Made by a program: the position numbers and the translations under genes | Source: Silvibacterium acidisoli | GTDB lineage: Bacteria; Acidobacteriota; Terriglobia; Terriglobales; Acidobacteriaceae | Assembly (NCBI GenBank): GCA_022870745.1 | Contig: CP085323.1 | Location: forward strand, 310,001 to 374,000 | DNA: 64,000 nt | Reading direction: 5' to 3' | Shown: positions 48,057 through 52,596 of the stretch, piece after piece | How the letters are laid out: each line of letters begins with the position of its first letter | Numbering within the stretch: the first letter of the stretch is position 1 | The notes under the pieces: generated by a model | Told to the model about the DNA's origin: nothing | Database searches by the model: none | The model's input: the letters and a program-made list of their open reading frames with translations, nothing else

Positions 48057-49331
48057 ATGACAACCCGCCGCGATTTCCTCTCCCTTGGAGCAGTTGCCGC
48101 CGCAGGCCTTACCGCGGGCCCGAACGCTTCCGCAGAAACCACGGAATCCGTTAAAAGCATGAAGCCGCCGGCCAGGCCGGTCATCGTCACCCGCGTCACC
48201 GGCGACCAGACCGTGCAGGAGGCCTACCAGATGCTGCTCGACGGCGCCGATACCCTGGACGCCGCGCATCACATCTGCCTCGGCCGTGAGAACGATCCCC
48301 GCGATCACAGTGTGGGCCTCGGAGGCCTGCCGAACGAAGATGGCATCGTCGAGCTCGACTCCTGCTGCATGCACGGCCCGTCGCGCCGCGCCGGCTCCGT
48401 CGGCGGCGTACGCAACATCCGCAATGTCTGCCAGTTGGCTCGTAAGGTCTACGAACACACTAGCCACGTGATGATGGTCGGGGAAGGCGCGGAAAAATTC
48501 GCCGTCGACCTCGGATTCCAACGCGAAAACCTGCTCACCGAAGATGCCCGCAAGATGTGGATGCTCTGGAAGGAGAGCAACTCGCAGATGGATTGGTGGG
48601 GACCTGGAATGGCCGACCCAGCCTGGAAGGATCCTTACGCAGGCAAACCCGCGCCCAAGCCCACGATCGACCTTCACGGGCTGTCTTCCCTTACGCCCCT
48701 CAATCCAGGCGCAGTGCCGCGCCATCCGGGGGAGGGGTGGCAACCTATCATCGCCGCGCGCACGCAGAAGTTGCTCGCCATGGCTGCCGACTTACAAATT
48801 GCCCCGGAACTACGCCTCGCGGCCGTCGAGCAGATACTCTGGCCAACTACCGGAACCATCCACGTATCGGCACTGAATACGAAGGGCGAGATCTCCGGCG
48901 CTACGACCACCTCTGGCCTGGCATGGAAGCTCTCAGGCCGGCTTGGCGACTCGCCGATCATCGGCGCAGGATGCTACACCGATCAGGATGTAGGCTCTGC
49001 CGGTGCGACTGGCAGCGGCGAAGAGAACATCAAGGTCGCGGGAGCGCACACCATCGTCGAGCTCATGCGGCAGGGCTACACCCCAAAGGAGGCAGGCCTC
49101 GAAACACTGCGCCGTATAGTTCGTAACTACGACGGTGACATGAACAGAATCCGTTACCTGGACATGGAGTATTACATCGTGCGCAGGGACGGTACTTATG
49201 CCGGAGTCTCGCTCTGGACTACGGGACCGACCGGCAGGCCGAGACAATTTGTTGTTCACGATGGAACCTGCCGGGTAGAGCCCTGCGCATGCCTTCTTCC
49301 GGGAGCAGCAGTGGAATGGCCGCCATTCTAG
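48057..49331 (+). CDS. N4-(beta-N-acetylglucosaminyl)-L-asparaginase family Ntn-hydrolase, Tat-exported
   Basis: 424 residues. MTTRRDFLSLGAVAAAG is a twin-arginine signal. The alpha chain contains TLDAAHHICLGRENDP and a CMHGPSRRAGSVGGVRN stretch; the beta chain would begin at T267 (GTIHVSALNTKGEISGATTT), with GRLGDSPIIGAG giving the substrate-binding Arg/Asp. These proteins self-cleave before the nucleophilic Thr and release Asn-linked GlcNAc from glycopeptides. Residue 266 before the Thr is Gly, where aspartylglucosaminidases have Asp and plant-type asparaginases have Gly. No Shine-Dalgarno; TACCAT lies 5 bases before the ATG. Confidence 0.88.
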   Translation: MTTRRDFLSLGAVAAAGLTAGPNASAETTESVKSMKPPARPVIVTRVTGDQTVQEAYQMLLDGADTLDAAHHICLGRENDPRDHSVGLGGLPNEDGIVELDSCCMHGPSRRAGSVGGVRNIRNVCQLARKVYEHTSHVMMVGEGAEKFAVDLGFQRENLLTEDARKMWMLWKESNSQMDWWGPGMADPAWKDPYAGKPAPKPTIDLHGLSSLTPLNPGAVPRHPGEGWQPIIAARTQKLLAMAADLQIAPELRLAAVEQILWPTTGTIHVSALNTKGEISGATTTSGLAWKLSGRLGDSPIIGAGCYTDQDVGSAGATGSGEENIKVAGAHTIVELMRQGYTPKEAGLETLRRIVRNYDGDMNRIRYLDMEYYIVRRDGTYAGVSLWTTGPTGRPRQFVVHDGTCRVEPCACLLPGAAVEWPPF

Positions 49332-49342
49332 CGGGCGATAAA

Positions 49343-49358
49343 GTCAATAAATTGATTC
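49343..49358 (+). repeat. 16-bp direct repeat, copy 1
   Basis: GTCAATAAATTGATTC, containing the dyad TCAAT-AA-ATTGA. An identical copy lies at 49520-49535. Confidence 0.85.
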
Positions 49359-49494
49359 ACTTAGGGAGTGGTTACCTCGGTTACGGAAGTTGTACCGGAT
49401 TTTAAGAAAATCTGGGCACTTTTTGAAGGCCATCAGTTTTCGATAGATCGAGGTAACTAAAACCCAGTAACTTGCTGCGAATTACCCTAAGTGA
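49357..49494. repeat. Nested inverted repeats
   Basis: Outer arms 49357-49366/49485-49494 (10 bp, perfect), inner arms 49371-49379/49449-49457 (9 bp, perfect) and a central hairpin 49398-49403/49407-49412. All nest about one centre, so an RNA from here could fold into one long branched stem. Confidence 0.7.
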
Positions 49495-49519
49495 CTGTCC
49501 GGTGATATTCCTAATCTGG

Positions 49520-49535
49520 GTCAATAAATTGATTC
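49520..49535 (+). repeat. 16-bp direct repeat, copy 2
   Basis: Identical to 49343-49358, 177 bp downstream. Sequences after both copies (AGGGAGT/AAGGAGT, GGATTTT hairpins, GCTGCGA.TTAC) are loosely similar, as if a longer unit had been duplicated and diverged. Confidence 0.85.
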
Positions 49536-49600
49536 TAAGGAGTTAGTTTTTTCTTGGATTTTCCGCGAAAGTTGTAGGAAATCCAGGCGCTGCGAGTTAC

Positions 49601-49638
49601 TCTCCAGTTAGCGGTCCAACCGCTGATTTTTCTGGAGA
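49601..49638 (+). promoter_or_regulatory. Hairpin masking the ribosome-binding site of the repeat gene
   Basis: Outer stem TCTCCAG (49601-49607) with CTGGAGA (49632-49638) and inner stem AGCGGT (49610-49615) with ACCGCT (49619-49624). The 3' outer arm contains GGAG, the Shine-Dalgarno of the TTG at 49644. The inner hairpin is followed by TTTTT (49627-49631), so it could also act as an attenuator. Confidence 0.6.
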
Positions 49639-49643
49639 AAACC

Positions 49644-50150
49644 TTGAACAAACTTACTGCTCTTCCGCTGCTTGCTGCTGCAATTTTTGCTGTTCCAGTT
49701 ACTAAGGCTTCCGCTCTTGCCAGCCCTGCAACCCCGCGTCCGCTGCCGCCTCCGGCCGTTGCCTTTGCCAGCCCCGCGACTCCGCGTCCGTTGCCGCCTC
49801 CGGCTGTTGCCTTCGCCAGCCCTGCGACTCCGCGTCCGCTGCCGCCTCCGGCCGTTGCCTTCGCCAGCCCTGCAACCCCGCGTCCGCTGCCGCCTCCGGC
49901 CGTTGCCTTTGCCAGCCCCGCGACTCCGCGTCCGCTGCCGCCTCCGGCCGTTGCCTTTGCCAGCCCCGCGACTCCGCGTCCGTTGCCGCCTCCGGCCGTT
50001 GCCTTCGCCAGCCCCGCGACTCCGCGTCCGTTGCCGCCTCCGGCCGTTGCCTTCGCCAGCCCCGCGACCCCGCGTCCGTTGCCGCCTCCGGCCGTTGCCT
50101 TCGCCAGCCCTGCGACTCCGCGTCCGCTGCCGCCTCCGGCTGTTGCTTAG
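49644..50150 (+). CDS. Secreted protein of nine identical 16-residue Pro-rich repeats
   Basis: 168 residues from a TTG start (GGAG six bases upstream). Residues 1-25 (MNKLTALPLLAAAIFAVPVTKASAL) form a Sec-type signal peptide; quoted in short as LPLLAAAIFAV...KASA. The rest is nine tandem copies of ASPATPRPLPPPAVAF, the last lacking only the final Phe. The mature part has no other sequence: about 37% Pro, one Arg per repeat, no acidic residue, no Cys. Differences between the nine copies are all synonymous, so this frame is under selection or was recently homogenised. It is likely an extended polyproline-type chain at the cell surface or a multi-copy peptide precursor. Function unknown; no family recognised. 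Confidence 0.75.
   Translation: MNKLTALPLLAAAIFAVPVTKASALASPATPRPLPPPAVAFASPATPRPLPPPAVAFASPATPRPLPPPAVAFASPATPRPLPPPAVAFASPATPRPLPPPAVAFASPATPRPLPPPAVAFASPATPRPLPPPAVAFASPATPRPLPPPAVAFASPATPRPLPPPAVA
49719..50150 (+). repeat. 48-bp tandem repeat array, nine copies
   Basis: Nine head-to-tail 48-bp units, the ninth ending in the stop codon. Variable codons are Pro3, Ala4, Thr5, Leu9, Ala13, Ala15 and Phe16; all variants are silent. Units 1 and 4 are identical and units 6 and 7 are identical, indicating unit-level duplication. Confidence 0.95.
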
Positions 50151-50190
50151 TACTTAAGTGGTAGATTAGCCAACGTTTTCTCCTGGCACT

Positions 50191-50229
50191 TGGACCTTCC
50201 GCTGATATGCTTAGCTAGTGGAAGGTCCA
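50191..50229 (+). promoter_or_regulatory. Hairpin masking the ribosome-binding site of the membrane-protein gene
   Basis: Perfect 10-bp arms TGGACCTTCC (50191-50200) and GGAAGGTCCA (50220-50229). The 3' arm contains GGAAGG, the Shine-Dalgarno 7 bases before the ATG at 50233. No T run follows, so it is not a typical terminator. Confidence 0.6.
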
Positions 50230-50232
50230 TAG

Positions 50233-51018
50233 ATGCGCATGACAGACATCGATACCGTGCTCTGGATCGCCGGTTTTCTCGGCGAAGCTCTTTGCCTGCT
50301 AGTCTTTACCTTTCGGCGCACCTTCCGGACATTCCCGGTCTTCTACATATGGATGGCCACAAATGTGGCGATGGAGCCAACCTTCTACTGGCTCGCTCAC
50401 CATGTCTCGTCGCTGACCTATTACCGCGTATATTTCGCGACGGACCTGCCACAGTCGCTGCTGGAAATCGGCATCATCATTGAAATCGCCGCGGCGGTTC
50501 TGCAGCCGGTAAAGCGTTCTCTTCCCAAGAAGCTCCCTGTTTTCCTCGTGGCGGCACTGCTGCTGGTCGGTGTCGGGGCATTCTTCTTCGCTACCCACCT
50601 GAACTCGTCGACGCTTGCCCATCCCCGCGGATTCCAGGTATTCGACACCACCATGGCGGTTCTGCGACTGGCAACATTTGTGTTGATCGCCGCGTTCTCC
50701 CAGGTGCTTGGCGTCGGCTGGAAAAACCATATCCTGCAGCTCGCCTCCGGACTGGGCTTCTATGCAGCGGTGTCGCTGATCGTCTCGATCGCCCAAAGCC
50801 ATCTGCGCGGCGGACCGGATTACGCCAGCCAGTATTTCGGGCTCGATCATCTTCGTATTGCCAGTTACCTTTGTGCACTGTACTATTGGTGCTTCTGTTT
50901 TGTTCGGAAAGAAGCTGCACGCAAAGAATTCAGTCCCAAAATGGAAGAGTTTCTGGTATCAATGGTTAGTCACACCAAGAGGCACCATCCGTACGTTGCC
51001 CGCTCGGCTGATAAGTAG
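50233..51018 (+). CDS. Polytopic membrane protein, function unknown
   Basis: 261 residues with about six to seven membrane segments (e.g. TVLWIAGFLGEALCLLVFTF, LPVFLVAALLLVGVGAFFFA, LATFVLIAAFSQVLGVGW, IASYLCALYYWCFCFV) and a basic cytosolic tail (KRHHPYVARSADK). A second ATG two codons downstream is an alternative start. I know similar unnamed proteins from acidobacterial genomes but no function. It follows the Pro-rich repeat gene and precedes a membrane-anchored protein by 10 bp, so the last two are surely co-transcribed. Confidence 0.78.
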   Translation: MRMTDIDTVLWIAGFLGEALCLLVFTFRRTFRTFPVFYIWMATNVAMEPTFYWLAHHVSSLTYYRVYFATDLPQSLLEIGIIIEIAAAVLQPVKRSLPKKLPVFLVAALLLVGVGAFFFATHLNSSTLAHPRGFQVFDTTMAVLRLATFVLIAAFSQVLGVGWKNHILQLASGLGFYAAVSLIVSIAQSHLRGGPDYASQYFGLDHLRIASYLCALYYWCFCFVRKEAARKEFSPKMEEFLVSMVSHTKRHHPYVARSADK

Positions 51019-51028
51019 GTAATTCGTT

Positions 51029-51553
51029 ATGGTTTTAGCAATCATATCCGTGTTGATCCCTGCGATCCTGATCGCATACGGCACGTACTGGCGTCGCAGC
51101 CAGTCTCGCCGCCGGAATGCGGACTGGGATTCCATCGTGGGCCGTCTTCGCTCCAATAATGAGTTCAACTTCGACCAGATCGCTGAACGTTATCTGTACA
51201 GCGAAGGTCTGAAGGTACCTGCATCCGACATCTGGAACCGCATCGACGGCGCCAACGGTCTGTGGGCAATGTTCACCAATGCCGGCGTCCTCATGGAACT
51301 GGCCGATTATGCTGCCGAGCACGGCGAAAATATTCCCGAGCAATTGATCGAGGAACTTCGCAGCGACGCCATGCATATTCGTATGGCAGTGATGGTCGCC
51401 CTGGTTCGCTACGGCTTCTCGCGCTCTGGCGTTGCGGCTTCAGTGAACGCACACCGCGCAGCGACAGCTTATAGCGCGATGCTGGCTCACATCACAACGC
51501 TCTTCCAGGAGCACTCGACGCTGTACTTCCCGCGTTTCCTGGAATCGATGTAA
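51029..51553 (+). CDS. Membrane-anchored protein of unknown function
   Basis: 174 residues: one N-terminal membrane segment (MVLAIISVLIPAILIAYGTY), a short Arg-rich stretch (RRSQSRRR) that keeps the remainder in the cytosol, then a mainly helical domain of about 140 residues (IWNRIDGANGLWAMFTNAGVLMELADYA in part: GLWAMFTNAGVL). No catalytic motif. It ends the presumed operon before a strong terminator. Confidence 0.75.
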   Translation: MVLAIISVLIPAILIAYGTYWRRSQSRRRNADWDSIVGRLRSNNEFNFDQIAERYLYSEGLKVPASDIWNRIDGANGLWAMFTNAGVLMELADYAAEHGENIPEQLIEELRSDAMHIRMAVMVALVRYGFSRSGVAASVNAHRAATAYSAMLAHITTLFQEHSTLYFPRFLESM

Positions 51554-51567
51554 CCCGCTTAGCTTCG

Positions 51568-51608
51568 AAAACAAAAGCCCTGCGCCGCGGCGCAGGGCTT
51601 TTGTTTTT
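51568..51608. terminator. Strong bidirectional intrinsic terminator
   Basis: A long stem around GCCCTGCGCC/GGCGCAGGGC with A's on the left and TTTTTGTTTT-like tract on the right. It serves the plus-strand membrane-protein operon and the minus-strand aldo/keto reductase. Confidence 0.88.
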
Positions 51609-51615
51609 GCCTCTA

Positions 51616-52596
51616 CTAAGCGTTCGTTTTCTGGAACTCGGCAATCTGGCTCAACTCGGCTTCGCTCAGGCGGAAAGTAGCCGCGGGCAGAACTCCGTCA
51701 ACCTGGTCGGGGCGGCGGGCGCCGACGATCGCCGCGGTGACAGCCGCATGACGCAGGGTCCACGCGATGGCGACCACGCCCGGTTCCACGCCGTGCTCGT
51801 CGCCGATCTCGCGCAGAAGCTCAACCAGCTTCAGGTTATGAGAAAGCTTCGGCTCGTTGAAGTTGGGATTGCGCTTGCGCCAATCGTCTGCCGGCATCTG
51901 GGCCACACGTTCGGCTGTCATTTTGCCGGTCAGCAGGCCAGAGAGCATCGGTGAGTAGTTGATGACGCCGATGTTGTTTGCTTCGCAGAACGGAAGAATC
52001 TCGGCCTCGATGTCCCTGCGGAGCAGCGAATAGGGCGGCTGCAGTGAGGTGATCGGGGCGATCTTCTGAGCGCGCTTCATCTGCTCGACGTTGAAATTCG
52101 AAACTCCTATGTGGCGGACCTTGCCCTGCTCTTTGAATTTCGCCAGCGTCTCCCATCCTTCCTCGATTTCCTCGTCCGGATTGGGCCAGTGGATCTGGTA
52201 GAGGTCGATGGTGTCCACGTTCAGGCGGCGGAGGGAGTTTTCCAGCTCCTCCTGGAGCGATGCCGCCTTCAGGCTGCGATAGATCGAGCGGTCTTCGTGC
52301 CAGCGCATCGAGCACTTGGTGAAGATGTAGGGCTTCTGCTTCGTGTTCTTCAGCGCCTTGGCTACTACTTCTTCCGAGTGGCCGAGGCCGTAGATGGCAG
52401 CGGTGTCGATCCAGTTGATGCCAGAGTCAATGGCGCGCTCGATGGTCTTTACCGATTCATCGTCGTCCTGGGCGCCCCAGGCAAACTCCCAGTTGCCGCC
52501 GCCGATAGCCCACGCGCCGTAACCGATGGCGGTGATGTGAAGATCTGAGTTGCCGAGTTGACGCGTCGCGAAGGTCGTTTCAAAAGTCGAAGCCAT
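51616..52596 (-). CDS. Aldo/keto reductase
   Basis: 326 residues, a TIM-barrel NADPH-dependent oxidoreductase. The catalytic tetrad is D64, Y69 (in INWIDTAAIYG), K94 (FTKC) and H136 (YQIHWPN). IGVSNFNVEQM and the C-terminal cofactor loop IVGARRPDQVDG are present. Substrate unknown; similar proteins reduce sugars or reactive aldehydes. Monocistronic. Confidence 0.93.
   Translation of the reverse strand: MASTFETTFATRQLGNSDLHITAIGYGAWAIGGGNWEFAWGAQDDDESVKTIERAIDSGINWIDTAAIYGLGHSEEVVAKALKNTKQKPYIFTKCSMRWHEDRSIYRSLKAASLQEELENSLRRLNVDTIDLYQIHWPNPDEEIEEGWETLAKFKEQGKVRHIGVSNFNVEQMKRAQKIAPITSLQPPYSLLRRDIEAEILPFCEANNIGVINYSPMLSGLLTGKMTAERVAQMPADDWRKRNPNFNEPKLSHNLKLVELLREIGDEHGVEPGVVAIAWTLRHAAVTAAIVGARRPDQVDGVLPAATFRLSEAELSQIAEFQKTNA

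Follow-up and report, generated by a model that had tools for sequence, protein, structure and literature searches.

The pair formed by fungal alpha-factor and its receptor Ste2, the Agr system of Firmicutes (AgrD/AgrB/AgrC), and the XRE-type regulators Rgg, ComR, and PlcR are the described systems that come closest to a three-gene cassette, A-B-C, located in the genome of Silvibacterium acidisoli. With alpha-factor and Ste2, the cassette shares a secreted precursor composed of near-identical units, a species-specific peptide, and a likely partner with seven helices, whose N-terminus is outside and C-terminus inside. It differs from the fungal pair in being bacterial, in having units without Kex2-type dibasic sites, in the lack of a G protein and of any significant fold match, in the adjacency of the putative receptor and peptide genes, and in the presence of a small intracellular partner, C. 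As in Agr, a short peptide gene adjoins the gene of a polytopic membrane protein and both diversify together. Unlike AgrD with its own type of leader, however, the cassette peptide carries a cleavable Sec signal, B lacks the conserved Cys and His of the AgrB protease, and neither a histidine kinase nor a response regulator is part of the cassette. At some loci, a secreted peptide is encoded close to an XRE-type HTH gene, as in systems of the Rgg, ComR, and PlcR type, but the cassette contains a 7TM protein and usually C, peptide import is not indicated, and the C-terminal region of the cassette regulator is, by eye, S24/LexA-like instead of being made of TPR repeats. The logic of the cassette resembles that of known peptide pheromone systems, and its parts belong to none of them by the tests made. 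A literature search yielded nothing on this system or on any of its three proteins, and no described peptide-signalling system in Acidobacteriota. Our preferred reading, which we hold with somewhat more confidence than doubt, is that of a peptide-communication cassette made up of a multi-copy precursor, a 7TM receptor, and an intracellular partner.

The cassette is encoded on the forward strand of the 64 kb stretch of DNA analysed here (the window, to which all positions refer). The ORFs, the repeat array, the leader repeats, and the terminator all lie where the preliminary description had placed them. The complete ORF of A (49644-50150) has a TTG start and codes for 168 aa. Its 26-aa signal peptide, MNKLTALPLLAAAIFAVPVTKASALA (49644..49721), is followed by a region of 16-aa repeats (49722..50150), the only tandem array within the window (TRF score 730). 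This product had been described as a signal-peptide protein with nothing but nine 16-residue repeats; it is indeed a signal peptide and then repeats, but eight of these are full units, SPATPRPLPPPAVAFA, and the ninth is truncated before the stop. The full units contain 6 variable nucleotide sites, every one of them synonymous. In the congeners, the A proteins begin with MTKL and have a signal peptide similar to that of A in the window. B (50233..51018; 261 aa) has seven predicted helices, an N-out/C-in orientation by the charge rule, and a conserved cytosolic tail. C (51029..51553; 174 aa), the candidate intracellular partner, has one N-terminal membrane helix and then a cytosolic helical domain. 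An intrinsic terminator with a 20-bp perfect palindrome and a T tail is located at 51568..51607. The upstream flank (48057-49331) codes for a Tat-signal asparaginase family protein, which is kept upstream in two congeners. The aldo-keto reductase gene downstream (51616-52596) adjoins the cassette in many genera; no such gene was detected beside paralogous cassettes, so this association is probably one of synteny alone.

Wherever the upstream DNA is intact, congeneric Silvibacterium loci have the whole trio, with a repeat unit that differs per species. The proposal of an undescribed three-gene system, comprising a secreted proline-rich peptide and dedicated membrane partners, is supported by this conservation as a unit; the absence of the repeat gene beside B and C in close relatives had been named in advance as the observation to speak against it, and the gene sits beside them there. 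B is present in 7 of 9 Silvibacterium genomes, the two genomes without it being 72-74% complete. Within Silvibacterium and the nearest outgroup, identities are 44-64% for B and 63-83% for C. Homologues of C were detected in 37 of the 150 family genomes, and B immediately precedes C at nearly all loci taken from these genomes. All 39 C loci revealed by a GTDB-wide scan belong to Acidobacteria, including Silvibacterium bohemicum, the closest named relative; the scan of genome contigs with B alone gave no match, and the loci were retrieved with the C alignment. Remote relatives of B (250-310 aa) were detected in families f1, f6, f22, f30, f52, f63, f66, f72, f74, and f77 of Acidobacteriota. These relatives are present in at least 56 of 396 genomes, a lower bound with six candidates scored per genome; B relatives occur in at least ten families. 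Of 128 non-redundant B genes, 84 had an ORF with a signal peptide and a P-x-P motif at most 150 nt upstream, versus 19 of 288 control genes, which came from these loci too (Fisher p 2e-36, nominal since the sequences are related). The other 44 B genes were without a recognisable P-x-P peptide in this automatic test; several of them lie at contig ends or are masked. Many loci share the same flanking aldo-keto reductase gene, which points to one orthologous locus where the peptide was rewritten time and again.

The genome of the window contains three more cassettes of the superfamily: L219 (G000:C1:1322740-1328525), with a peptide ...ALPMPVCDPTQTCNIRGR; L220 (G000:C1:760467-766183), with a peptide ...VPPAPVCPQEHCPPTTPPPAN; and L061 (G000:C1:374000-384000), with ten units around TGSDPMPKSKGGLT. 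A plasmid or phage origin was rejected, as B had no plasmid match and C no phage match. An anti-phage defence system was also rejected, given that no PADLOC match was obtained up to E 1.

The AlphaFold2 model of B (pLDDT 88.9; pTM 0.81) contains seven membrane helices and a cytosolic helix. The K/R counts of its loops place the N-terminus outside and the C-terminus inside, a topology as in GPCR. Residues R32, P35, F37, E84, P92, F149, W163, and G173 are nearly invariant, and the alignment has no conserved Cys or His. The preliminary description recognised no named family for the three proteins; this agrees with the lack of Pfam, NCBIfam, or PADLOC matches and of PDB folds at E<0.001. Window B and C fall into no Pfam or NCBIfam family, and only scattered weak matches, none common to the members, were obtained for B. 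Its best PDB match has E 0.096 and TM 0.39. Almost all top fold matches are to 7TM rhodopsins or GPCRs (TM about 0.3-0.5), which, being below significance, support the topology only. No sequence or fold match to GPCR had E below 0.001, and the alignment shows no conserved Lys in helix 7 as would be characteristic of a microbial rhodopsin, to which there was no significant fold match either. B is a candidate peptide receptor of the 7TM N-out/C-in type. Tandem duplication of B inside the cassette, with a divergent second copy, was observed at L048, L052, and L108.

In C, residues W33, W69, G74, G77-L78, N84-A85, D113, A144, and Y148 are invariant. A fold search with C gave nothing meaningful, and no output domain could be recognised in B or C. 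One-helix C-like proteins follow many short remote B genes, while B proteins of about 300 aa are mostly without C. In genus g48 (L036, L040, and L046), C occupies the syntenic locus with neither B nor a repeat gene next to it; at least one of these genomes has other B-C pairs at different positions (L092, L095). C of L051 contains an in-frame TGA and is possibly a broken copy.

The outer half of B and its outer loops are far less conserved than the inner half and the tail (mean pairwise identity of 0.25 in the outer versus 0.41 in the inner half; p 1e-9), and the variation of the outer half is linked to that of the peptide. Among 28 disjoint pairs, with predicted topology and hand-chosen peptide windows, peptide divergence correlated with that of the outer half at partial r 0.65 (permutation p 0.0002) and with that of the inner half at 0.04. 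For the 100 closest pairs, each half being examined with the other removed, these values were 0.65 and 0.01; with conservation-matched columns, they were 0.61 and 0.08. Pairs had initially been chosen by inner identity, a possible source of bias, and the analysis was redone with symmetric selection, conservation-matched columns, and disjoint pairs. Over all 1540 pairs with matched columns, the difference between the outer and the inner half was absent, and the effect is confined to closer pairs; this may reflect saturation of distant pairs.

Clustering of neighbouring genes revealed one recurrent non-syntenic partner, an XRE-type HTH protein, beside 22 cassettes. It comprises two families, beside 17 and 5 cassettes, in varying positions and orientations; the HTH_31/HTH_3 match is weak for one family and has E 2e-10 for the other. 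The S24/LexA-like appearance of the C-terminal region is without a Pfam match. In the 396 genomes searched, 13 of the 14 strong matches to the first family were at B loci, the thirteenth (G050) being assigned by coordinates, about 1.9 kb from B. XRE1 is absent from the genome of the window.

Export, anchoring, or immunity had been proposed for the membrane proteins. A receptor role fits better, given the co-divergence of the peptide and the outer face of B and the HTH regulator genes beside many cassettes. The main rival is antagonism, in which A would release an antimicrobial peptide and B-C would be the matching immunity unit; we consider it rather unlikely. A fast-diverging secreted peptide with dedicated, co-diverging membrane partners would be expected in such a case as well, and a co-evolving immunity protein would yield a similar co-divergence signal, which counts against the receptor reading. 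Proline-rich antimicrobial peptides of insects are also made from precursors with tandem arrays. The mature units of the cassette are, however, nearly neutral (mean net charge of +0.2; range from -2 to +2), unlike the cationic proline-rich antimicrobials. Neither an exporter nor a modification gene recurs near the cassettes, where only syntenic genes and HTH regulators do, so that the features of a RiPP cluster are lacking. The near-exclusive location of the first regulator family at B loci also argues against antagonism.

The units encoded upstream of B are lineage-specific. They include MSPASPHPVPPPALA, GPSAPAPLPPPAFASH, GPATPVPVPPPSLASVDF, GPAAPVPLPPPSAALA, SPSAPQPIPPAGDSFAALR, GPGLPAPKVPTRSIGVIEVA, SPNLPFPKSLGKSGSVAY, SIPMSPIPVGRVVS, FGPGGGMPSPIGQTGLIA, FPMGTNPLPRVNEAA, AKGIIGSLPRPAGTLQ, and others, and the P-x-P motif is present in 34 of 35 representative units. 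The cores GPGDPSPIGH and GTDPEP may resemble plant peptide hormones. Two precursor forms were found, namely a tandem array, with about 25 units in the longest case (L105), and a single-core peptide of about 55 residues (range about 40-65 aa). Single-core precursors of about 54-65 residues, with a signal peptide MNKSIRNLALTAA..., occur in a large genus of the family and elsewhere; they consist of the signal peptide, one core (e.g. GTDPHP, GSDPRP, or GTNPPP), and a hydrophobic tail ending with GL or GF. Short secreted peptides, frequently containing two cysteines (MPVPSCAPDGQNSCGL, VPIPVCPPDDPNACGM), are also encoded ahead of many remote B relatives, with as many as six gene copies in tandem. 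Separate short secreted-peptide genes upstream of one B number six in L149, three in L144, two in L142, and three in L092. In genus g59 (L043, L044, and L045), B is preceded by a short hydrophobic secreted peptide without a proline-rich core, e.g. AHATEIWRWIMSL, which may mean that the peptide class was lost or has shifted.

The first test for selection on the units used pattern-matched units, which favours identity, and was repeated with plain period slices. With the period slices, the units of 8 of 12 arrays had one and the same amino-acid sequence, and those of the remaining four came close to this. Across the arrays, 76 variable DNA sites were located in codons of invariant residues and 10 in codons of variable residues. 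Units alike in amino acids yet synonymously diverged indicate that selection acts on the unit, which is kept as a defined peptide. A signal peptide followed by near-identical units under unit-level selection is the make-up of a multi-copy precursor of the alpha-factor type.

These data also bear on the earlier notion of a surface polyproline peptide. If A persisted as a proline-rich surface or matrix polymer, with B-C as assembly or anchoring factors, arrays as long as that of L105 would be well suited to it, and repeat proteins are common in surface structures. We regard this explanation as improbable. Many loci encode only one core or separate short genes, from which no long chain could be made, and the amino-acid-identical, synonymously diverged units fit better with the release of a defined unit. 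Since precursors come in two forms, of which the repeat array is one, released peptides are likelier than a surface protein.

The leader of A (49332..49643) contains a 16-nt direct repeat, GTCAATAAATTGATTC, at 49343 and 49520, as well as nested inverted repeats. Its description as structured is supported by a predicted fold of -108 kcal/mol versus -78.8 ± 5.1 in shuffles (z -5.7) and by the repeats present, but the sequence itself is not shared: no similar DNA was found in any fetched relative, and the leaders of three congeners have mild structure only (z -1.5 to -2.9). Judged by these comparisons, the elaborate leader is private to the S. acidisoli genome. A mobile element or repeat as its origin was rejected, since the leader has a single genomic copy, with no second one elsewhere in its own genome, and is absent from congeners. 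No known RNA family reached the gathering score in the window.

In agreement with the preliminary description, folding placed the Shine-Dalgarno (SD) sequences of both genes, A and B, within stems. The SD of A is inside the stem of the last leader hairpin (about 49601-49637), and that of B (GGAAGG, 50220-50225) is in the 3' arm of the A-B intergenic hairpin (50191..50229). The latter arrangement was found for 44 of 130 B genes (p 0.05 or less) versus about 6 expected. Hairpins resembling that of the window, with different arm sequences, are present at L034, L132, and L035. The top of the hairpin carries a -10-like element, TGATATGCT (50203-50211), in the extended form TG-A-TATGCT. The corresponding motif TATNCT is strand-specific, precedes 38 of 130 B genes, mostly at a distance of 18-38 nt, versus 8.2 in shuffles, and sits at the hairpin top in the window and several relatives. 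The extended -10-like motif in the hairpin loop and its family-wide enrichment before B make the earlier proposal of a single A-B-C transcript doubtful; judged by the motif, B probably has its own promoter besides read-through. On the full-length mRNA, the hairpin would lock the ribosome site of B, so that peptide but little B would be made. A promoter in the hairpin loop would give rise to a short mRNA for B and C starting past the 5' arm, and the levels of peptide and receptor could be set separately. That A is instead a secretion-monitoring arrest peptide like SecM or VemP, with stalling that frees the ribosome site of B from the hairpin, would agree with the Sec signal, the proline stretches, and the SD-covering hairpin shortly downstream, but is very improbable, as the stop of A in the window is 40 nt before the hairpin, a common C-terminal arrest motif is lacking, nine identical units would be superfluous, and tandem single-core genes stand further from B.

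In a peptide-communication cassette, A would be a Sec-secreted multi-copy precursor, from which identical P-x-P units would be freed outside the inner membrane as short peptides. The variable outer half of B would recognise the peptide of its own species, as suggested by their co-divergence. C, anchored beside B by one helix and constantly paired with it, may pass the signal inward via its helical domain. In many relatives, the adjacent XRE-type HTH regulator would be the likely output. Several observations weigh against this reading: B and C have no recognisable output domain, the genome of the window lacks the XRE1 regulator, the similarity to 7TM receptor folds is below significance, some B genes have no recognisable P-x-P peptide, and the longer B proteins are usually without C.

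Acidobacteriota rank among the most abundant bacteria in soil. We give an even chance to the broader view that phylum-wide cassettes of this kind combine secreted P-x-P peptides from tandem multi-unit or single-core precursors, a cognate 7TM N-out/C-in receptor with an outer face that co-evolves with the peptide, and a one-helix relay to an HTH regulator, forming a bacterial counterpart to peptide-GPCR pairs, with signals private to each species. Context has been gained for three protein families without a match to curated families. If the view is true, many private peptide-receptor pairs would be readable from genomes, because each receptor gene adjoins its peptide gene. Peptide-receptor specificity and co-evolution would become testable on a large natural set, and a seven-helix receptor type would join bacterial cell-cell communication.
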